Position numbers and translations under genes: made by a program. A DNA stretch of 32,398 nucleotides from Clostridia bacterium (GTDB lineage Bacteria; Bacillota; Clostridia; Christensenellales; Aristaeellaceae). The stretch is from positions 1-32,398 of the forward strand of contig JAFSKN010000050.1 in NCBI GenBank assembly GCA_017448975.1, written 5' to 3'. A model generated the notes under the pieces. That model did no database searches. It was not told the origin of the DNA and saw only the letters and a list, made by a program, of their open reading frames with translations. The stretch's first letter is position 1, and each line of letters starts with the position of its first letter. Positions 5,335 to 27,052 of the stretch are shown here, in pieces.

Positions 5335-7275
5335 TTAATTCTGTATTCTCCTGAACCGTTTCTCCAGCTCATTCCTCGTGATCTGCACCATCAATGGCCG
5401 TCCGTGGGGGCAGGTGGGGGTGACTTTTTGCTCGATCACGTCCCGGATCAATTGCTTCACGCTTTCCTCCGGCAGGCGTTCGCCGCCCTTGACCGCGTGC
5501 TTGCAGGCCATTTGAATCACCCGGCTGGTGCGGTCGGCAGGGGGCAGGGAGGGGTTCTCCATGAGCTCGTCCAGGGCTTCCAGCAGGCAGCTTTCCGCCT
5601 GGGGCTGGCCCAGCACGATGGGCACGCCGCGCAGCTGCACCGTGCCGTTCCCGAAGGGGGCAAGGTCGAAGCCCGCTTTTTCCAGCGTTGCCTTGTTGTC
5701 TTCGTAGCAGGCGTATTCCGCCGGGGACAGCGTAACAACCAAAGGAATCAGCAGGGATTGACTTGCCGGGGCGGAGGCGGTTTCCCGCATGAACTGCTCG
5801 TATAACAGCCGTTCGTGCACCGCGTGCTGGTCGGACAGGATCAGCAGATCGCCGTATTCCATGACGATGTAGGTGTTGAAAGCCACGCCCAGCACCCGAA
5901 GGGGCTTTTGCCGGAAGACCGCTTCCACCGTGGGGGCCTGCACCTGCTCCGGTTCGGGAATCGGGGCTGGCATTTCCGGGGGCTTTTCCAGGTTGGGCCG
6001 GGGCGGCAGGATGGAAGCCCCGGAATCCCGCAGCAGGTTGGGCCGGGCGGGGACAGGGGGCGGCAGGATGGGGGCCGCTTCCTTTTTTGGCGCGGGGGGC
6101 GCGAAGGTGGGCAGCGCCCCGTCCTCCGTAAAGGCGCTCAACCGGCTGTCCGTTTTTTTCAGAGCGGCGGGGGCGTCCTCCGGCGGGGCCACGGGCTGGG
6201 TGACCTGGACTTTCGCCGGGGCGGGGGCCGGGGCCGCGTTTTCCGGGGGCAGATACATGGGCGGGATGGGCGGCGCGGCATTGGTCCTTTCCAGCGCTTC
6301 AAACACGATGGTTTCCACCGCCGCCCGTACGCCGCGCTCGTCCTGGAAGCGCACCTCCCACTTGTTGGGGTGCACGTTCACGTCGGCGCTTTCAAAGGGC
6401 ATGGTCAAATGCAGCACGCACAGGGGGAACCGCCCGATGGTCACCCGCTGGCGGCAGGCGTTTTCCACGGCGGAGGAAAGCATGGGGCTTTTCATGGCGC
6501 GGCCATTTAAGAAGAAATGCTCGTGGCTCCGGTTGCCCCGGCCCGCATCGCCCACGCCCACGAAGCCGGAAAGCATCACGCCGTTCATGCTGCCGTCGAT
6601 TTTCGTCAGCAGCTTCAAGGTGTCCGTGCCGTATACGCTCATAATCGCGCTGTCCAGCTTCCCGTCCCCGGCGCTGAAATAAGTGAGCTTCCCGTCCGCC
6701 ATGAAGCGGAAGGAGGTGGCGGGGTGGGAAAGGATCAGCCGGGCCATGAGCTCGGACACGGCGGCGGTTTCGGAAGCGGGTTTTTTGAGGAACTTCCTGC
6801 GCACCGGGGCGTTGTAAAACAGCTCCTTTACCGTGAAGGTGGTGCCCTCCGGGCAGGCGGCGTCCTGAATATCCAAAATGTCGCCGCCCTCGTTGCGCAC
6901 CAGCACGCCCATCTCCTGGCCCCTGGCGCGGGTCTGGCAGGTCAGCTTGCTCACCGCCGCGATGGAGGCCAAAGCCTCCCCTCGGAAGCCTAAGGAGCGC
7001 ACGCCGTATAAATCCTCGGCGGTGCGGATTTTGCTGGTGGCGTGGCGGGCGAAAGCTAAGCGGATGTCGCTGGGCTGTATGCCGCTGCCGTTGTCCGCCA
7101 CCCGGAAAGAGGCAAGCCCCCCTTCCTTGATGTCCACGGTAATGGCCGTAGCCCCCGCGTCCATGCTGTTTTCCACCAGTTCCTTGATGGCCGCCGCGGG
7201 CCGTTCCACCACTTCCCCGGCGGCGATTTGGCCGATGACCTCCGGGGGTAATTGACGAATGTGGGCGATTTCCAT
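5335..7275 (-). CDS. mutL: DNA mismatch repair protein MutL (endonuclease type)
   Basis: This 646-residue protein is a complete MutL. The N-terminal GHKL ATPase shows KELVENSMDAG (31-41, E34 and N36), DNGSGI (61-66) and FRGEAL (98-102). A proline/alanine-rich linker runs from about 331 to 455. The C-terminal dimer domain carries the nicking-endonuclease motif DQHAVHERLLYE (482-493), ACKHAVK (590-596) and CPHGRP (622-627), so it should nick DNA as in bacteria without MutH. It acts after MutS, whose gene lies upstream in the same run but is separated from it here by three unrelated genes. AGGAGA twelve bases before the ATG supports the start. Confidence 0.97.
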   Translation of the reverse strand: MEIAHIRQLPPEVIGQIAAGEVVERPAAAIKELVENSMDAGATAITVDIKEGGLASFRVADNGSGIQPSDIRLAFARHATSKIRTAEDLYGVRSLGFRGEALASIAAVSKLTCQTRARGQEMGVLVRNEGGDILDIQDAACPEGTTFTVKELFYNAPVRRKFLKKPASETAAVSELMARLILSHPATSFRFMADGKLTYFSAGDGKLDSAIMSVYGTDTLKLLTKIDGSMNGVMLSGFVGVGDAGRGNRSHEHFFLNGRAMKSPMLSSAVENACRQRVTIGRFPLCVLHLTMPFESADVNVHPNKWEVRFQDERGVRAAVETIVFEALERTNAAPPIPPMYLPPENAAPAPAPAKVQVTQPVAPPEDAPAALKKTDSRLSAFTEDGALPTFAPPAPKKEAAPILPPPVPARPNLLRDSGASILPPRPNLEKPPEMPAPIPEPEQVQAPTVEAVFRQKPLRVLGVAFNTYIVMEYGDLLILSDQHAVHERLLYEQFMRETASAPASQSLLIPLVVTLSPAEYACYEDNKATLEKAGFDLAPFGNGTVQLRGVPIVLGQPQAESCLLEALDELMENPSLPPADRTSRVIQMACKHAVKGGERLPEESVKQLIRDVIEQKVTPTCPHGRPLMVQITRNELEKRFRRIQN

Positions 7276-13957: not shown

Positions 13958-15367
13958 TTACGGCGTTTCGATTCGCCCTTTCAAGGTGGTTTTGCTGGCG
14001 GCGGTGATTTTCACCGGCACGATTTTGCCCACCAAGCCGGCGTTTCCTTCAAAGTTGACGCTGATGTTCCGGGAGGTTTTGCCGGTGATCTGGTTTTCGC
14101 TGCGCTTAGAAGCGCCGGTGACCAGGACGGACGCCGTTTGCCCGATCATTTCGGCGAAGCGCTTCTGGGTCATTTCCTCCTGGAGGGCGATCAGGCGCTC
14201 AATGCGTTCCGTGGCAAGCGCCGGGTCGATGCGGCCCGGCATGTCGGCGGCCCGGGTGCCCGTGCGGGGGGAATAGATGAAGGTGAAAGCGCTGTCGTAG
14301 CAAACCATGCGCGCCAAATCCATGGTGTCCTCAAAGTCCTGGTCCGTTTCGCCGGGGAAGGCCACGATGATGTCCGTGGTCAGGCCCACATCCGGGGCGG
14401 CCTTGCGGATTTTCTCCACCTTCTCCAGATAGCTTTCCCGGGTGTAGCGCCGGTTCATGGCCTGCAAAATGCGGTTGCTGCCGCTTTGCACGGGCAAATG
14501 GAGATGGCGGCACAGGACGGGGTTTTCCGCCATTTCCCGGATCAGCTCGTCGGACAGGTCTTTTGGGTGGCTGGTCATGAAACGGATGCGGGGGATGCCG
14601 GTTTCCGAAACCTTTCGCAGCAGTTGGGGGAAGGTGAGGCCGCCGGGCACGTCGTTGCCGTAGGAATTGACGTTCTGGCCCAGGAGCATGATTTCCTGTA
14701 CGCCCTGCTTTTGCAGGCATTCCACCTCCCGGAGAATGTCGTCCGGGGTGCGGCTGCGCTCCCGCCCCCGCACGTAGGGCACGATGCAGTAGGAGCAGAA
14801 ATTGTTGCAGCCGTACATGATGGTCACATACGCTTGAAAATCGCTTTCCCTGCGGATAGGCAGACCCTCGATGAGGGTGCTCTGTTCCTCCGGCACGGCC
14901 ACCGTCCGGCGGCGGGTGGAAGCGGCGCGGTACAGCAATTCGGGCAATTGATAAATGTTGCCCGTGCCAAAAGCCACGTCCACAAAGGGGTACTGCCGCA
15001 AAATCTTTTCCGCCATGCCCGGCTCCTGCACCATGCAGCCGCACACGCCGATGAGCATTTCAGGCCGCTCCTTTTTGATTTCCTTGAGCCAGGTCACATT
15101 GCCCAGGGCCTTGCGCTCGGCGTTGTCCCGGATGCAGCAGGTGTTGTGCAGCACAAAGTCCGCTTCCTCCCGGCTGGGGGCGGGGGATAGGCCCATGTCC
15201 TCCAGCATGCCCGCCAGCTTTTCCGAATCGTGGGCGTTCATCTGGCAGCCGTAGGTGACGATGTGGTAGGTCCGGGGGCGGTCGGTCAGCGCTTCAAATT
15301 CTTTTGCGAATTGCCGCTGGGCCGCCATTTCCTCCGGGGTAACGCGAATGGTTTCTTCTCGTAACAT
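13958..15367 (-). CDS. miaB: tRNA-2-methylthio-N6-dimethylallyladenosine synthase MiaB
   Basis: This 469-residue radical-SAM methylthiotransferase adds the 2-methylthio group to i6A37 made by MiaA. The N-terminal UPF0004 domain has three cluster cysteines (C41 in YGCQMN, C77 in NTC, C111 in GVCGC). The radical-SAM domain has CxxxCxxC (C187, C191, C194, in YGCNNFCSYC), and a TRAM domain ends the protein (about 400-469). The open frame runs 35 codons further upstream through a heptamer-repeat arm, an artefact; GGAGG before the ATG at 15365-15367 sets the start. Order miaB - hydrolase - ricA-like - mutS recalls Bacillus ymcB-ymcA-cotE-mutS. Confidence 0.97.
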   Translation of the reverse strand: MLREETIRVTPEEMAAQRQFAKEFEALTDRPRTYHIVTYGCQMNAHDSEKLAGMLEDMGLSPAPSREEADFVLHNTCCIRDNAERKALGNVTWLKEIKKERPEMLIGVCGCMVQEPGMAEKILRQYPFVDVAFGTGNIYQLPELLYRAASTRRRTVAVPEEQSTLIEGLPIRRESDFQAYVTIMYGCNNFCSYCIVPYVRGRERSRTPDDILREVECLQKQGVQEIMLLGQNVNSYGNDVPGGLTFPQLLRKVSETGIPRIRFMTSHPKDLSDELIREMAENPVLCRHLHLPVQSGSNRILQAMNRRYTRESYLEKVEKIRKAAPDVGLTTDIIVAFPGETDQDFEDTMDLARMVCYDSAFTFIYSPRTGTRAADMPGRIDPALATERIERLIALQEEMTQKRFAEMIGQTASVLVTGASKRSENQITGKTSRNISVNFEGNAGLVGKIVPVKITAASKTTLKGRIETP

Positions 15368-15391
15368 GATTGATCCTCCGACTTTGATGCC

Positions 15392-15499
15392 AGAGTTGAG
15401 AGTGGAGAGTTGAGCGTGGGGATTATATCGTTTTCCAAATGGGTTCTCGCATTTTTCAAAACACAATCTCAACTCTCAACTCTCAACTCTTCACTCTCT
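15392..15499. repeat. Inverted heptamer-repeat element B (rng-miaB spacer)
   Basis: The left arm (15392-15423) and right arm (15466-15499) are inverted arrays of AGAGTTG-type heptamers around a 42-base core unlike the other cores. The right arm ends one base from the stop codon of the RNase E/G gene (15501-15503). Confidence 0.88.
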
Positions 15500-19465: not shown

Positions 19466-20524
19466 ATGAATGGAATCACTGTCCGGCCCTTCCGGCGGGA
19501 GGACGAAAACGGCGTTATGTCCGTCTGGAACGCCTGCGTGGACGCGGGGGACGTGCTGTATTATCCCTTGACCGGGGAATATTTTGAGCGGAAGTTCCTC
19601 CTGGGCGACGGGTGCGAAGCGGAAAACCTGCTGATCGCGGAAACGGAGGGGCAAATCGCGGGCTTCATCCACGGTGTGGCCCCGGGCACCTTTGCCCTGG
19701 CCCGGCCCGGCTGCGCGTATCTTACCTGCGTCATGACCGCGCCCTCGTTCCGGGGCCGGGGGATCGGAAAAGCATTGCTTTCCGCCCTGAAAGCCCGGAT
19801 GAAGGAAAGAAAAGCCCATACCCTGTACATTTCCAGCCTGAATCCCGTGAACCTGGATTGGCGCATCCCCGGTACCCCCGGCCACGACCACAACAACATG
19901 CCGGGGCTGGATACGGGCTGCGCGGGGTACGGCTTTTTCCCGGCCCGGGGCTTTCAGGAAAAGTACCGGGAAGTGAGCCTGTATATGAACCTTTCGGATT
20001 ACCGCGTGCCGCCTGAGGTGCCGGAAATCCAAAATCGTCTAAGCGCGGAGGGGATTTATACCGGGCCCTACGACGCGGCTTGGGACTGCGCTTTTGACGG
20101 CATGTGCGACCGGGTGGGCAGCGATTACTGGCGGGACGTGCTGCGCACCGAAATCGCCGCCTGGAAAGAAAACCAGCCCAACGCCGACGCCCGCTTCTGG
20201 GCGGACGGCATACGGCCCGACCGGCCCCGGCCCCTGCTTACCGCCGTAAAGGACGGGCAGATCGTGGGCTTTACCGGCCCGGTGGACAGGCAGCAAAGCG
20301 GCCGGGGTTGGTTCACCGGCATCTGCACCGATCCGCTGTTTGAACGCCGGGGCATCGCCACCGTGCTGTTTAACCTGCTGATGCAGGCATTCGTCAAAGA
20401 GGGCGCGGCCTTCACCACCCTGTTCACCGGGGCGGACAGCCACGCCCAGAAGGTATACCGCCGGGCCGGGCTGCGGCCTGTGCGGGAATTTGCCTTGATG
20501 GCCCTGGATTTAAAGGAGGAATGA
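19466..20524 (+). CDS. Double-GNAT acetyltransferase
   Basis: This 352-residue protein carries two GNAT domains in tandem. The first has the acetyl-CoA loop RGRGIGKAL (96-104) after YLTCVMTAPSF; the second has ERRGIATVL (293-301) after TGICTDPLF, closed by AQKVYRRAGLRPV (328-339). Both loops look intact, unlike the many two-domain GNAT proteins where one is degenerate. Substrate unknown; mycothiol synthase and aminoglycoside-type acetyltransferases share this layout. The start at 19466 follows GGAAG, and the longer open frame upstream lies before the promoter. It is the first gene of the plus-strand cluster, and its stop lies two bases before the chosen PIG-L start. Confidence 0.87.
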   Translation: MNGITVRPFRREDENGVMSVWNACVDAGDVLYYPLTGEYFERKFLLGDGCEAENLLIAETEGQIAGFIHGVAPGTFALARPGCAYLTCVMTAPSFRGRGIGKALLSALKARMKERKAHTLYISSLNPVNLDWRIPGTPGHDHNNMPGLDTGCAGYGFFPARGFQEKYREVSLYMNLSDYRVPPEVPEIQNRLSAEGIYTGPYDAAWDCAFDGMCDRVGSDYWRDVLRTEIAAWKENQPNADARFWADGIRPDRPRPLLTAVKDGQIVGFTGPVDRQQSGRGWFTGICTDPLFERRGIATVLFNLLMQAFVKEGAAFTTLFTGADSHAQKVYRRAGLRPVREFALMALDLKEE

Positions 20525-20526
20525 CG

Positions 20527-21219
20527 ATGAGCAAAACCATTATGGCCGTGGGAGCCCATACCGGCGACGCCCAGCTGACCTGCGGTATGCTGCTGGCCAA
20601 GCACGCCATGAACGGCGACCGGGTGGTGATCGTGGACCTGACCGCCGGGGAGCGGGGCACGCCCAAGGGCTGGACCGTATCGGATTTCCGGGCCTACAAC
20701 GCGGAATGCGCCGGGAAATTTGCCCGGAAGTTAGGCGGCGTTTCCGTGGTGCTGGACACCCCCGACGGGGAGCTGTACGACACCAAGGAAGAAGAGCTGC
20801 GCCTTGCCGATTTGATGCGGGAATACCGGGCCGACGCGGTGCTGTATCACTGGAAAAACAGCCTGCACAAGGATCACGAGGCCGCCCACCGCATCACCGA
20901 TAACGCCATTTTCTACGCCTCCCTGCCCACCTTTGAACGGCCCCTGCCCCCAGCGCCCATCAAGCGCTTCATGTGCGCCGAAAACTGGGAGGACGAGCCG
21001 GAGTTCACCCCCTATTACTGGTTCGACGTGACGGAAGCGTTCCCCCTGTGGAAGGAAGCGATCAAGGAGCTGTGGCTCGCGGAACATTCAACGAGTTTCA
21101 AATACCTGCGCTATTACGAAGCGCTGAGCGTCGTGCGGGGCGCCCGCATCGGCGTGGATCACGCCACCTGCTTCGGCACGTCCCCCAGCGCCAAACGCCA
21201 GAAGCTGGATTTGCTGTAA
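20527..21219 (+). CDS. PIG-L/LmbE-like protein with altered active-site motif
   Basis: This 230-residue protein is a PIG-L/LmbE-type de-N-acetylase fold: IMAVGAHTGDAQLTCG (5-20), VVIVDLTAGERG (33-44) and YHWKNSLHKDHEAAH (107-121). The normal first motif is AHPDDE; here it reads AHTGDA. The zinc ligands equivalent to MshB H13, D16 and H147 remain (H11, D14, H117), but the aspartate used as general base is a glycine (G13). I recall Clostridia relatives with AHxGDxELT, so this may be a true subfamily rather than decay. Activity on N-acetyl sugars is doubtful. ATG at 20527 is preferred because AAGGAGG lies at normal spacing; an ATG at 20521 overlaps the GNAT stop. Confidence 0.85.
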   Translation: MSKTIMAVGAHTGDAQLTCGMLLAKHAMNGDRVVIVDLTAGERGTPKGWTVSDFRAYNAECAGKFARKLGGVSVVLDTPDGELYDTKEEELRLADLMREYRADAVLYHWKNSLHKDHEAAHRITDNAIFYASLPTFERPLPPAPIKRFMCAENWEDEPEFTPYYWFDVTEAFPLWKEAIKELWLAEHSTSFKYLRYYEALSVVRGARIGVDHATCFGTSPSAKRQKLDLL

Positions 21220-21252: not shown

Positions 21253-23904
21253 ATGGCTGGAAAGGGATGCGTGATCGGGCTTGCGGCCCACGTGGACGCG
21301 GGGAAAACCACCCTGTCCGAATCCCTGCTGTTTCTTTCCGGCGCGGTGCGCAAACAGGGCCGGGTGGATCATGGCGACGCTTTCCTGGATACGGAGCGCA
21401 TGGAAAAGGAGCGGGGCATCACCATCTTTTCCAAGCAGGCGGTGCTGAACTGGAAAAAGAAAGAAATCACCCTCATGGACACCCCCGGCCACACGGATTT
21501 TTCCGGGGAAACGGAGCGGGTGATGGGGGTGCTGGACGCCTGCGTGCTGGTGATCAGCGCCGTGGACGGGGTGCAGAGCCACACCCGCACCCTGTGGAAG
21601 CTGCTGGAGCGGTTCAACGTTCCCGTGCTCCTGTTCGTCAATAAAATGGACCGCTTTCAGGGGAACAAAAACGCCCTGGTGACGGCCTTGCAAAAGCAGC
21701 TTTCCGAGAATATCGTGGATTTTGCCGACCGGGACGATGAAAAGATCGCCCTGTGCGACGAAGTGGCGCTGGATTTTTATTTGAAAGAGGGCAAAGTGCC
21801 CGATTACCGCGTGCGGCAGCTGATTCGCCAGCGGCGGCTGTTCCCCTGTTATTTCGGCTCCGCCCTGCGCAACGAGGGCATCGAAATGCTGCTGAACGCA
21901 TTGGCGGAATTCGATCCGGAAAAGGAATATCCTTCGGAATTCGGCGCGCGGGTGTACAAGGTGGCAAGGGATCACCAGGGGGCGCGGCTCACCTTCCTGA
22001 AAGTCACCGGCGGCATATTGAAAGTACGGGATCTGCTTTCACTGAAGGACGAAAGCGGCGAAACCCTGTGGGCGGAAAAGGCGGCGGAGCTGCGCCAGTA
22101 TTCGGGGGCGAAGTATACGCCCGTGCAGCAGGCGGAGGCGGGCAGCCTGTGCTGCGTGGTGGGATTGAGCAAAACGGCCCCCGGCGACGGTTTGGGCGTG
22201 GAAAAGGCGGGGAAGGAAGCGTCCATTCAGCCCTGCTATGCCTGCCGTCTGGTGATCCGGGATCAGACGGACATCCACCGCGCTCTGGATTATCTGCGCA
22301 CATTGGAAGAAGAAGAACCGCTCATGCGGGTGGAATACATCGAACAGAAGCGGGAAATCCACATCCAATCCATGGGCGACGTGTATCTGGAGGTGCTCAA
22401 GCGCCAGTGCCAGGACCGCTTCGGCATGGAGATCGATTTTGCCGACGAAAGCGTGCTGTACCGGGAAACCATCTTAGGGCCGGTGGAGGGAGTGGGACAC
22501 TACGAACCTCTGCGCCACTACGCCGAAGTGCATTTGCTGCTGACCCCCGGCAAACGGGGCAGCGGCATGACCTTTTCTTCCGCCGTCTCCCTGGACGATT
22601 TGGCGGTGAACTGGCAGCGCCTGATCATGACGCACCTGAAAGAAAAAGTACATGTGGGGGTGCTTACCGGGTCGCCCATCACGGATATGAAAATCACCCT
22701 GATCGGGGGAAAAGCCCACCTGAAACACACCGAGGGCGGCGATTTCCGCCAGGCCACCTATCGGGCCATCCGCCAGGGGCTGATGAAGGCGGAAAGCGTG
22801 CTGCTGGAGCCCTATTTGAATCTTGAACTGACCCTGCCCGAAGAAAATTTGGGCCGGGCTATGACCGATTTGACTGCCATGGGCGGAGAATTTGAGGCCC
22901 CGGAAGCGGCCCCGGACGGGCTGCTGACCCTCCGCGCCCTGGCCCCCGCCTCCAAGTGCGCGGCCTACGGCAAACAGGTGAGCATTTACACCAAGGGCAG
23001 GGGGCACATGGCGGCGGAGTTTGCCGCCTGCCTGCCCTGCGCTGACGCGGACGCGGTGATCGCCGCCCGGGCTTACGATCCCCGGGCCGACCTGTACAAT
23101 TCCCCCGATTCCATCTTCTGTTCTCACGGGGCGGGGTTCGACGTGCCCTGGGATCAGGTGGACGCCTATGCCCATCTGCCCTTGCTGAAGGAAATCAGGG
23201 AACAGACGGCCAAGGAAGCCGAAGCCGTCCCCAAGGCCCCCGTTCGCTATCAGGGCACGGCTAAGGAAGACGAGGAATTGATGGCGATTTTTGAGCGCAC
23301 CTACGGCCCCGTCAAGTCCCGGCAGTTGTTCGCGCCTGTGAAGCCCGCGGTGTCCGGCACCGTCCCCGCGGCTCCCGGCACCGCGCCCCAGCGGGAAATC
23401 CTGCTGGTGGACGGCTACAACATCATTTTTGCCTGGGAGGAATTGAAAGCCCTGGCGAAGGATAATCTCCAGGCCGCCCGGCAGCAGCTCATGGACATCC
23501 TGTGCAATTACAGCGGCGTCACGGGCAGGGACGTGATTTTGGTGTTCGACGCCTACCGGGTGCCGGGCAACGCCGGATCGGTGGAAAAATACCTGAATAT
23601 TTTCGTGTGCTACACCAAGGAAGCCCAGACCGCCGACGCTTTCATTGAAAAAACCACCTACGAGGCCAAGGGCACGCCCCGCATCCGGGTGGCCACCTCC
23701 GACGGGCCGGAGCAGACCATCGTGCTGGGCAACCGCGCCCTGCGGGTATCCGCCCGGGAATTTGAGCGGGAGGTGGAGGGCGTGCAGGGCAGCATCGCCG
23801 CCTTCTTGGAAAAAAATAACCGCGTCCACAGCGCTCCTGCCTTAGAGACGGCCTATAAAGCCGCCTGGAAGCAGAAAAAGCAGGGGGAGGCGGAAAAACC
23901 GTGA
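21253..23904 (+). CDS. TetM/EF-G-type ribosomal GTPase fused to YacP/Rae1-type NYN nuclease domain
   Basis: This 883-residue protein joins two translation-linked modules. Residues 1-~650 are an EF-G/TetM-type translational GTPase: G1 AHVDAGKT (12-19), G2 RGIT (54-57), G3 DTPGH (76-80), G4 NKMD (130-133), then domains II-V ending in YTKGRGHMAAEF (579-590) and SHGAGFDVPWDQV (624-636). After a linker, 713-855 is a NYN/PIN domain of the YacP type: ILLVDGYNIIFAW (716-728, D720), VILVFDAYRVPGN (761-773, D766), TKEAQTADAFIE (788-799, D795) and RVATSDGPEQTIVLG (812-826). TetM-type proteins bind the A site; Rae1/YacP of Bacillus cuts mRNA in the ribosomal A site. I infer a ribosome-targeted mRNA cleavage or rescue factor; tetracycline protection is not proven. 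AAGGAG supports the start. Confidence 0.93.
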   Translation: MAGKGCVIGLAAHVDAGKTTLSESLLFLSGAVRKQGRVDHGDAFLDTERMEKERGITIFSKQAVLNWKKKEITLMDTPGHTDFSGETERVMGVLDACVLVISAVDGVQSHTRTLWKLLERFNVPVLLFVNKMDRFQGNKNALVTALQKQLSENIVDFADRDDEKIALCDEVALDFYLKEGKVPDYRVRQLIRQRRLFPCYFGSALRNEGIEMLLNALAEFDPEKEYPSEFGARVYKVARDHQGARLTFLKVTGGILKVRDLLSLKDESGETLWAEKAAELRQYSGAKYTPVQQAEAGSLCCVVGLSKTAPGDGLGVEKAGKEASIQPCYACRLVIRDQTDIHRALDYLRTLEEEEPLMRVEYIEQKREIHIQSMGDVYLEVLKRQCQDRFGMEIDFADESVLYRETILGPVEGVGHYEPLRHYAEVHLLLTPGKRGSGMTFSSAVSLDDLAVNWQRLIMTHLKEKVHVGVLTGSPITDMKITLIGGKAHLKHTEGGDFRQATYRAIRQGLMKAESVLLEPYLNLELTLPEENLGRAMTDLTAMGGEFEAPEAAPDGLLTLRALAPASKCAAYGKQVSIYTKGRGHMAAEFAACLPCADADAVIAARAYDPRADLYNSPDSIFCSHGAGFDVPWDQVDAYAHLPLLKEIREQTAKEAEAVPKAPVRYQGTAKEDEELMAIFERTYGPVKSRQLFAPVKPAVSGTVPAAPGTAPQREILLVDGYNIIFAWEELKALAKDNLQAARQQLMDILCNYSGVTGRDVILVFDAYRVPGNAGSVEKYLNIFVCYTKEAQTADAFIEKTTYEAKGTPRIRVATSDGPEQTIVLGNRALRVSAREFEREVEGVQGSIAAFLEKNNRVHSAPALETAYKAAWKQKKQGEAEKP

Positions 23905-24749
23905 AACGGGAACTGGACGCATGCCAATTGGCGGAGCGCAGCGTCAGCAAAAAGTACCGCAAGGAAATTTGGAACCCCTTTATCGCGGCGGTGAAGCACT
24001 ACGAGCTGGTGGAGCCGGGGGACAAAATCGCCGTGTGCGTGTCCGGCGGCAAGGATTCCATGCTGCTGGCGAAGCTGATGCAAATGCTGCGGCGGTACAC
24101 GGAAACGCCCTTCGAGCTGGTCTTTTTGATGATGGACCCCGGCTACGCCCCGGACAACCGGCAATTGATCGAGGAGAACGCCGCCCTGCTCCGCATCCCC
24201 CTGACGGTATTTGAAACCGATGTTTTTCAGGTGGCCAACGGCACCGAGAAAAATCCCTGCTATCTCTGCGCCCGCATGCGCCGGGGACATTTGTACAGCG
24301 AGGCCCAAAGGCTGGGCTGCAACAAGATCGCCCTGGGCCATCATTTCAGCGACGTGATAGAAACCACCGTCATGGGCATGCTGTACGGCGCGCAGCTCCA
24401 GGCCATGCTGCCCAAGCTGCACAGCGACAACTATCCCGGCATGAGCCTGATCCGGCCCCTGTACTGCGTGCATGAGGATGCGATTTTAGCCTGGCAGCGC
24501 TACAATCACCTGCGCTTCATTCAGTGCGCCTGCCGCTTCACCGAGCGCGAGGCGGGAGAGGAACACGGGGGCAAGCGCAGGGAAATCAAGGAACTGATCC
24601 GGCAATTGAAGCGCCAGAACCCCGACGTGGAAAAAAGCATTTTCGCCAGCCTGCACAACCTGTGTTTGGACACCTTCCCCGGCTACAAGCACGAGGGAAA
24701 GGGGCATTCGTTTTTGGAACGGTACAAGGCGAATGAAAGGACACTTTAA
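23901..24749 (+). CDS. TtcA-family tRNA 2-thiolation protein, copy 1
   Basis: This 282-residue protein has the PP-loop SGGKDS (48-53) used to adenylate the target base, a CxxC (C120, C123 in CYLCARMRRG) and IQCACRF (C209, C211); in E. coli TtcA three cysteines at matching places hold a 4Fe-4S cluster. TtcA makes 2-thiocytidine at position 32 of some tRNAs. The conserved GHHxDD stretch reads GHHFSD here (S150). The start is GTG overlapping the GTPase-NYN stop by four bases (GTGA) with GGAGG upstream, so the two are translationally coupled. A paralogue lies at 26126-26959; the two align without a gap from about residue 17 to 211. Confidence 0.87.
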   Translation: MKRELDACQLAERSVSKKYRKEIWNPFIAAVKHYELVEPGDKIAVCVSGGKDSMLLAKLMQMLRRYTETPFELVFLMMDPGYAPDNRQLIEENAALLRIPLTVFETDVFQVANGTEKNPCYLCARMRRGHLYSEAQRLGCNKIALGHHFSDVIETTVMGMLYGAQLQAMLPKLHSDNYPGMSLIRPLYCVHEDAILAWQRYNHLRFIQCACRFTEREAGEEHGGKRREIKELIRQLKRQNPDVEKSIFASLHNLCLDTFPGYKHEGKGHSFLERYKANERTL

Positions 24750-26125: not shown

Positions 26126-26959
26126 TTATTCGTCGTAAACGTCTAAAAAAGACATTTCTTTTCCCTTGTATTTCCACCCCGCCATGGTGTCCAGCTGGAC
26201 ATTGTGGATGCTGCCGAAAATGTTCTGCTCCACCACGGGGTTTTCTTCGTGCAGCCTTTGGACCAGGCGCTTGACCTCCTGGCGCTTGCTTTCGTGTTCG
26301 CCCGCCTCGGCCCCTTCGGTGAACCGGCAGGCGCACTGGATGAAGGAAAGGCCCATGGCGTCCTTCCAGGCGATGATGTCCTGCTCCCGCACCATGTACA
26401 TGGGCCGGATCAGCTCCATGCCGGGGAAGTTTTTCGCCCGCAGCTTGGGGGGCATGGCCTGCAGCTGGCCGCCGTACAGCATGCTGATCAGTACGGTTTC
26501 GATCACGTCGTCGAAATGGTGGCCCAGGGCGATCTTGTTGCAGCCCAGGGCTTGGGCTTTGCCGTACAGGCAGCCCCGCCGCATGCGGGCGCACAGGAAG
26601 CAGGGATGCTTCTCCTGGCTGGCGGAAGCTTCAAAGATGTCGCTTTCAAACAGGGTGTAGGGAATTTCCAGCAGCTTGGCGTTGTTTTCCACTTTTTCCC
26701 GGTTTTCAGGCGCGTAGCCGGGGTCCATAATGAGATAGACGGCCTCAAAAGGGACCTCCGAATGGCGGTGCAGCAATTGGATGAGCTTCGCCAGCAGCAT
26801 GGAATCCTTGCCCCCGGAAATGCACACGGCGATTTTGTCCCCCGCCTCAATCAGCCGGTAGCGTTTCACCGCCCGGCAGAAGGGCTGCCACAGGGTTTCC
26901 CGGTATTCCGTCAGGATGCTTCTTTCCAAGCCCTGGATATAGCTGAATTCCCGGCCCAC
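26126..26959 (-). CDS. TtcA-family tRNA 2-thiolation protein, copy 2
   Basis: This 277-residue protein is a second TtcA-type PP-loop enzyme: SGGKDS (48-53), CFLCARMRRG (C120, C123), GHHFDD (146-151) and IQCACRF (C209, C211). Motif numbering matches copy 1 exactly over this stretch, and it keeps the normal HHFDD. The likely job is sulfur insertion into tRNA using an iron-sulfur cluster; whether both copies modify C32 is unknown. The open frame runs to 27046, but the promoter at 26990-27018 puts the transcript start near 26983, so the GTG at 26957-26959, behind AAAGGGGGG, is the start. The DUF1858-like gene follows 12 bases on. Confidence 0.9.
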   Translation of the reverse strand: MGREFSYIQGLERSILTEYRETLWQPFCRAVKRYRLIEAGDKIAVCISGGKDSMLLAKLIQLLHRHSEVPFEAVYLIMDPGYAPENREKVENNAKLLEIPYTLFESDIFEASASQEKHPCFLCARMRRGCLYGKAQALGCNKIALGHHFDDVIETVLISMLYGGQLQAMPPKLRAKNFPGMELIRPMYMVREQDIIAWKDAMGLSFIQCACRFTEGAEAGEHESKRQEVKRLVQRLHEENPVVEQNIFGSIHNVQLDTMAGWKYKGKEMSFLDVYDE

Positions 26960-26989
26960 GGCCCCGCCCCCCTTTCTCAAAGCGCTTTC

Positions 26990-27018
26990 ATTATAGGCGC
27001 TTTCTTTTTTACCGTCAA
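26990..27018 (-). promoter_or_regulatory. Near-consensus promoter of ttcA copy 2
   Basis: Minus-strand TTGACG (27013-27018), a 17-bp spacer and a perfect TATAAT (26990-26995) form the strongest promoter in the window. The expected transcript start is about 24 bases before the GTG start codon, which decides the start of the gene. Confidence 0.85.
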
Positions 27019-27052
27019 GACGGAGCCGGACAATCACGGGAAACAAAGAGGC

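Follow-up and report, generated by a model that had tools for sequence, protein, structure and literature searches.

A translational GTPase fused to a Rae1-type nuclease in Clostridia, a candidate stand-in for the native Rae1

Rae1 (YacP) of Bacillus subtilis depends on translation and acts in the ribosomal A site, according to the accessible text of two studies (PMC6613710, PMC10100781), and its reported targets, in the accessible text of two others, are mRNAs and short open reading frame (ORF) transcripts (PMC10632193, PMC11780869). A YacP-like NYN domain has also been described in 'Tet proteins' of ten Clostridiales by Atkinson 2015, for which the accessible text of that paper suggests RNase-based resistance (PMC4342817). 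Here we analyse such a protein, encoded at positions 21253..23904 of a 32,398-nucleotide stretch of DNA from a Clostridia bacterium (contig JAFSKN010000050.1; hereafter the window), in which a GTPase shaped like the elongation factor EF-G is joined to a Rae1-type NYN nuclease. Our comparisons support the view that this protein takes the place of the native rae1 gene. An earlier sequence-only reading of the window had mentioned similar domain strings in Clostridia databases, and the architecture is indeed in print in the accessible part of Atkinson 2015. No other paper treating the fusion, and no worked-out function for it, was found in a literature search that mostly lay outside subscription papers; the main text of one further candidate (PMC8547433) does not mention a YacP-like NYN domain. 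Within the literature searched, three aspects are new: (i) the absence of rae1, and its decay at its own locus, in genomes with the fusion; (ii) a separate GTPase subfamily that has unfused members; and (iii) the mismatch with the tetracycline ribosome-protection proteins (RPPs).

The fused protein and its nuclease half

The fused gene (21253..23904, forward strand, as for all features of the protein below) starts with ATG and forms one frame of 883 codons with no internal stop. Its Pfam matches (GTP_EFTU, EFG_III, EFG_IV, EFG_C and NYN_YacP) all exceed the gathering scores. The single-chain fusion proposed by the sequence-only reading holds. The GTPase (G) domain covers residues 8–220 (21274..21912; GTP_EFTU, E 2e-50) with intact AHVDAGKTT, DTPGH and NKMD motifs, and is followed by EF-G-type domains III (residues 326–396, 22228..22440; EFG_III, E 4e-6, 27.2 bits against 27), IV (residues 401–514, 22453..22794; EFG_IV, E 2e-17) and V (residues 516–592, 22798..23028; EFG_C, E 8e-13). 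Behind these lie a C-terminal extension with a SIFCSHGAGF motif (residues 593–658, 23029..23226), delimited from the alignment and an AlphaFold2 model, a poorly conserved tether (residues 659–714, 23227..23394) with a helix at 670–684, and the NYN_YacP/Rae1 nuclease domain (residues 717–858, 23401..23826; E 1e-44).

The fusion is genuine and not an assembly join, because at least 577 relatives were found in genome contigs and the 80 kept as the fused-locus set match most of the fused protein at 49–94% identity. Chain length across these 80 proteins is 845–951 aa. Alignment A1 has 79 rows, one for the window and 78 from the set of 80 fused loci (L003 and L038 were left out; L038, whose frame is split, was excluded from the protein alignments). 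AHVDAGK, DTPGH and NKMD are invariant or above 90% in this alignment, in line with the earlier claim that the GTPase motifs are intact.

The NYN half scores 153 bits with NYN_YacP (PF05991; gathering score 24.6) and matches the B. subtilis YacP/Rae1 structures 5mq8 and 5mq9 over 140 residues (E 1.7e-24). The sequence-only reading had named D720, D766 and D795 as the acidic residues of a Rae1-type domain; the positions are correct, and N723 and D817 also belong to the site. None of these five residues varies in the 79 rows of A1, and D720, N723 and D766 are fully conserved (1.00) among 65 fused as well as 34 stand-alone NYN rows. The lack of conservation that the sequence-only reading had named as a refutation is therefore not seen. 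We take these acidic residues and the asparagine to form the active site, a set chosen partly from the alignment. The window's match ends at profile position 144 of 166, where the complete C-terminal end of Rae1 is not reached; among the matches listed, fused copies end at positions 135 to 166 and nearly all stand-alone NYN_YacP copies extend to 164–166.

The AlphaFold2 model built from A1 has a mean predicted local distance difference test (pLDDT) of 85.7 and a predicted template-modelling score of 0.68. It is confident for the GTPase, the C-terminal extension (599–658) and most of the NYN domain, and the top solved Foldseek matches to the whole model are EF-G chains. Residues 689–712 have a pLDDT below 50 and are read as a disordered tether. 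The spacing from FC..G.G to DGYN is 74–134 residues with a median of 85 (79 of the 80 proteins; one falls outside the pattern). Ratios of non-synonymous to synonymous substitution rates, computed against five relatives (L002–L006), are 0.08–0.18 for the GTPase, 0.05–0.29 for the C-terminal extension, 0.17–0.42 for the tether and 0.05–0.23 for the NYN domain. Since the ratios are low in both the GTPase and the NYN domain, both halves are maintained under purifying selection.

Separate rae1 in genomes with the fusion

The window's genome, which is 85% complete, contains one NYN_YacP domain, the fused one. In the window's family, 51 of 60 genomes have an NYN_YacP match, one each; read from frame lengths, 16 of these are fused (frames of 874–942 codons) and 35 are not (frames of 170–502). 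A census of the class found the fusion in 129 of 391 genomes, and a separate rae1 is kept in only one of the 129 (G389). The 129 include G291, G448 and G196, whose fusions either diverge from the rest or match in separate pieces, and one genome (G192) carries two fused copies. The subfamily GTPase occurs as a separate protein in 22 genomes, 15 with and seven without a separate NYN_YacP. A further 229 have no subfamily GTPase at E 1e-130, 95 of them with NYN_YacP; frames are known for those of the 95 that are among the matches listed, and one (G307) has the domain only at 7e-4. Another 11 genomes, in which the frame is broken or truncated, were set aside before the tally (G283, G140, G110, G387, G399, G190, G239, G369, G379, G400 and G404). 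A Fisher test gives an odds ratio of 0.01 (p 2e-23), which ignores kinship and is descriptive only. Candidate second NYN domains in G195, G260 and G301 were rejected as 21-bit matches under the cut-off.

We then examined the chromosomal place of rae1. The proteins used as queries for this slot were identified as SigH, ThyX, a SpoU methylase (rlmB) and an RNase III-domain protein, which we presume to be MrnC, a name of our own choosing. In the window's family, the surroundings of rlmB were inspected in 20 chosen genomes (12 of the 16 fused and eight of the 35 others). The order rlmB–rae1–sigH is found in all eight unfused genomes, and rlmB–sigH without rae1 in all 12 fused genomes, including the window's own, where the NYN domain sits in the fusion on a different contig. 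Fused and unfused genomes alike mostly have mrnC and thyX upstream of the slot. Among 20 chosen separate NYN loci of the class, SigH lies downstream in 19 and RlmB directly upstream in 16.

Among 23 chosen fused genomes of other families, 17 keep rlmB next to sigH and none of these has an intact rae1 there; the remaining six, with no SigH within the 1.5 kb at hand, are uninformative. Remnants are found in three slots: (i) G084 has a decayed rae1 (E 1.9e-12) with three stop codons in the match and no DGYN in three frames; (ii) G406 has a smaller piece (E 0.002); and (iii) G192 has a 21-codon match at 81% (E 3e-5). Decayed remnants of this kind, between rlmB and sigH in fusion-carrying genomes, lie at 2217–2858 of L284 and 1148–1501 of L291. 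Weaker slot matches (E 0.04–1) were counted as nothing. An occupied slot was seen in two unfused genomes (families f30 and f54), in G389, and in G118, which shares its genus code with G084 and has no fusion match. We read these slots as signs that rae1 has apparently been lost, or is degrading at its own locus, in genomes that carry the fusion, which supports, at the level of sequence comparison, a replacement of Rae1 by the fusion.

Where the fused domain came from was addressed with a tree of 99 NYN rows made by a quick method, for which L006 was cut wrongly by the pattern (46% of columns filled) and L228 gave no row. A single starred clade (99*) with 67 rows holds the fused domains. Three of its rows are marked as stand-alone: L156, which is mislabelled and actually fused, and the separate NYN domains of G302 and G321. 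In the window's family, the stand-alone rae1 genes lie in a different starred clade, so the fused gene of this family probably did not arise from the rae1 of the family. The shared fusion may have been acquired by transfer, or an old coexistence may have been followed by loss. In G302 (L239 and L247), a separate NYN protein of ∼190 aa lies in the fused clade and a separate GTPase in the unfused clade, an arrangement that possibly reflects a domain split or transfer.

A GTPase subfamily beside the ribosome-protection proteins

The sequence-only reading described the GTPase half as TetM-like. The description is apt in a loose sense, as the best NCBIfam model is tet_protect, and is not supported in a functional sense. 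The GTPase reaches 390.2 bits with tet_protect against a cut-off of 775, and 269 bits with the TetM/W/O/S model against a cut-off of 1100. The EF-G of the same genome, which passes the EF-G cut-off (1117.9 bits), obtains 389.8 bits with tet_protect; the fused GTPase thus comes as close to tet_protect as EF-G does, and no closer.

We compared 30 fused GTPases with 16 unfused relatives, 10 true RPPs and one EF-G. Two domain IV loops and a C-terminal motif are common to the fused and unfused proteins and are absent in the RPPs and EF-G, although this last motif is variable in some unfused proteins. The first loop (loop I; GVGHYEPLRHYAEVH, residues 413–427, 22489..22533) is subfamily-specific in the alignments and pattern counts. 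The second, at the tip of the domain (GKAHLKHTEGGDFRQATYRAIRQGL, residues 486–510, 22708..22782), aligns with the SPVSTPADF-type loop of true RPPs. The C-terminal extension is similar in the unfused relatives and unaligned in the 10 RPPs. A Cys/His-bearing motif around SIFCSHGAGF in this extension is conserved in the fused members and, in altered form, in the unfused ones.

Patterns of domain IV were counted in six frames in 80 fused loci, another 30 fused loci, 16 unfused loci and 26 RPP loci. KHT.GGDFR is present in 80/80, 29/30, 16/16 and 0/26 of these sets, respectively, and GH[YF]EPL..Y.E in 80/80, 30/30, 16/16 and 0/26. By contrast, the SPVSTPADFR-type loop, to which the accessible text of PMC4342817 gives a role in drug release, is found in 26/26 RPP loci and in none of the fused (0/80 and 0/30) or unfused (0/16) loci. 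The divergent fused proteins of G291 and G448 have loop I and lack the tip pattern. Four genomes initially considered to hold possible unfused relatives (G206, G332, G287 and G108) have no such loops, and we do not count them in the subfamily.

In a GTPase tree of 66 rows, made by a quick method with a single long-branched EF-G as outgroup and with unusual residue composition flagged in 21 rows, the fused proteins form one clade (98*), the fused and unfused proteins together another (99*) on a long stem, and the RPPs a third (100*). Given the distinct domain IV loops and the separate clades, these sequences place the GTPase in a subfamily of its own beside the RPPs, not as a TetM. Four proteins of ∼640–690 aa (L253, L254, L255 and L257) are RPP-like, have neither the RPP nor the subfamily loops and lie beside the RPP clade as a further group.

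NCBI records name members of the subfamily either 'translation factor GTPase family protein' or 'TetM/TetW/TetO/TetS family'. The unfused form occurs on Ligilactobacillus salivarius plasmids of 141–530 kb, and two plasmid loci (fused, from Monoglobus; unfused, from L. salivarius) both have loop I, one of them with the tip pattern. Published L. salivarius resistance data (PMC8065712) do not state whether those strains carry the gene and are not decisive for its role. A mobile resistance gene was considered and rejected: of 1289 matching plasmid records, 25 of which were listed, two have a place that spans at least 80% of the query. True RPPs are present in 23 genomes of the class, seven of which also carry the fusion (G085, G094, G107, G211, G291, G341 and G357). 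This is close to the overall frequency of 129/391, and the fusion therefore does not seem to make an RPP dispensable. In brief, the scores against curated cut-offs, the loops, the tree and the co-carriage of true RPPs led us to reject a TetM or RPP role as the main function, and tetracycline resistance is not supported by these sequence comparisons.

Possible action and relation to known systems

We consider it reasonably probable that the fusion is the Rae1 of its lineage, i.e. an mRNA endonuclease that depends on the ribosome and is linked by a flexible tether to a translational GTPase of its own. Since nearly all sampled fused genomes have no separate rae1, the protein is probably a ribosome-guided mRNA cutter and not a tetracycline resistance factor; and since it stands in for Rae1, it most likely does the same job, brought to its site by an EF-G-shaped carrier. 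Ribosome binding would follow by analogy from the EF-G family, and cutting of mRNA in the A site by analogy from Rae1; a GTP-licensed delivery to the A site, as the sequence-only reading envisaged, is what we infer from the two halves together. The putative order of events is as follows: (i) the GTP-bound, EF-G-shaped half would bind the factor site of a stopped or slowed ribosome with an open A site; (ii) the nearly invariant domain IV loops would probe the decoding site; (iii) the tethered NYN domain, behind the conserved C-terminal extension, would be held at high local concentration beside the A-site mRNA; (iv) GTP would be hydrolysed and domain IV withdrawn, upon which the NYN domain would enter and cut the mRNA; and (v) general RNases and ribosome rescue would complete the process. 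The placing of GTP hydrolysis before cutting is suggested by a presumed clash: domain IV and a docked Rae1 would share the same space, so binding and probing would come first and cutting after hydrolysis.

Several points weigh against this reading. The clash just mentioned is one. The exclusion counts are not independent because the genomes are related, and we selected the slot genomes instead of sampling them at random. Neither half requires the other, as seen from the seven genomes that have the GTPase without NYN_YacP over the cut-off and from the 95 that have NYN_YacP without the subfamily GTPase at E 1e-130. Finally, the NYN domain of the window and of many fused relatives has no counterpart to the last ∼20 profile positions of Rae1. 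This is roughly where a change in B. subtilis Rae1 (R166P), apparently one that abolishes function, came out of a selection (accessible text of PMC6613710); the fused domain may therefore act differently. One reading of the missing end is that docking has passed to the GTPase, and another is that the fused enzyme acts in a different way.

An alternative that we regard as unlikely, though the strongest of the rivals, is that the halves work separately, the NYN domain as the cell's Rae1 and the GTPase in an unrelated ribosome job, with the fusion linking only their amount and place. Each half does occur alone in many genomes, the tether is long, variable and partly predicted to be disordered, and no conserved gene neighbourhood indicates one pathway: no conserved operon partner was found in 80 fused and 16 unfused loci, where the widest shared neighbour family occurs in eight. 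However, the fusion forms one clade across many families in which the native rae1 is missing or decayed, and the fused NYN domains of several families end short of the Rae1 profile, as if docking had been passed to the GTPase. Cutting of rRNA or tRNA on the ribosome, for quality control or a controlled shut-down, is improbable: NYN domains have been proposed to act in rRNA and tRNA maturation (cited in the accessible text of PMC4342817), but the fusion stands in for an enzyme reported to target mRNAs and short ORF transcripts, and no PADLOC match points to a defence role, which also led us to reject an anti-phage system. Least probable of all is a ribosome-protection protein that removes tetracycline or another decoding-site drug, with the NYN domain adding to resistance as Atkinson 2015 proposed, for despite the top-ranking tet_protect model, the many plasmid relatives named TetM/TetW/TetO/TetS family by NCBI and the resistance conferred by an intrinsic chromosomal tetM of the Bacillus cereus group (accessible text of PMC5209696), at most a putative member of this subfamily, the scores, loops, tree and co-carriage described above all speak against it.

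A bolder reading can be offered tentatively: the fusion could be a one-chain bacterial no-go-decay factor whose GTPase senses a stalled, open A site and, through GTP hydrolysis, licenses its own Rae1 cut, and the unfused GTPase of other Bacillota could then be a partner or specificity factor of Rae1. As to how Rae1 finds and enters ribosomes, a lineage in which it is joined to an EF-G-like GTPase and the free enzyme is absent suggests that a GTPase of this kind may guide it there. The unfused GTPase is then a candidate partner in lineages that have both as separate proteins. The result also matters for resistome surveys, as a widespread Clostridia gene that part of the NCBI records assigns to tetracycline resistance probably has another function.

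The neighbours of the fused gene in the window are varied. A PIG-L-type deacetylase gene (20521–21219, forward strand) ends 33 bases upstream and is possibly on the same transcript. A gene for a PP-loop protein (ATP_bind_3, TtcA-like; 23901–24749, forward strand) shares its first four bases with the fused gene's end, and a second of the same type lies close to the first (26126–27046, reverse strand); relatives of the first were seen in three loci, the window included, in the survey of fused and unfused neighbours. Further away are genes for a MiaB-type tRNA methylthiotransferase-like protein (UPF0004, Radical_SAM and TRAM; 13958–15472, reverse strand) and MutL (5335–7275, reverse strand).

Compared with known systems, the fusion has the same architecture as the Tet-NYN proteins of Atkinson 2015, which that paper files as Tet proteins with a resistance idea; rae1 loss, the unfused subfamily and the loop difference are not mentioned in its accessible text. 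With B. subtilis Rae1/YacP (5mq8, 5mq9) it shares the NYN domain, the acidic residues with the asparagine and usually one copy per genome, but it carries the domain behind a GTPase of ∼650 residues, and in the window and many other fused copies the domain falls short of the profile end by ∼20 positions. It resembles the Tet(M)/Tet(O) RPPs in its EF-G domain order, G-domain motifs and TetM-like annotation; it differs in its scores far below the curated cut-offs, its domain IV loops and C-terminal extension, in its separate clade and in the added nuclease. EF-G has the same fold as its GTPase, which shows EF2-type domains and G motifs, whereas domain IV loops and the C-terminal extension differ and the genome has an EF-G of its own. 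Unfused GTPases, for example those of L. salivarius plasmids, are 43–45% identical to the window's GTPase half and have no NYN domain; the one examined shares loop I and has 640 codons.

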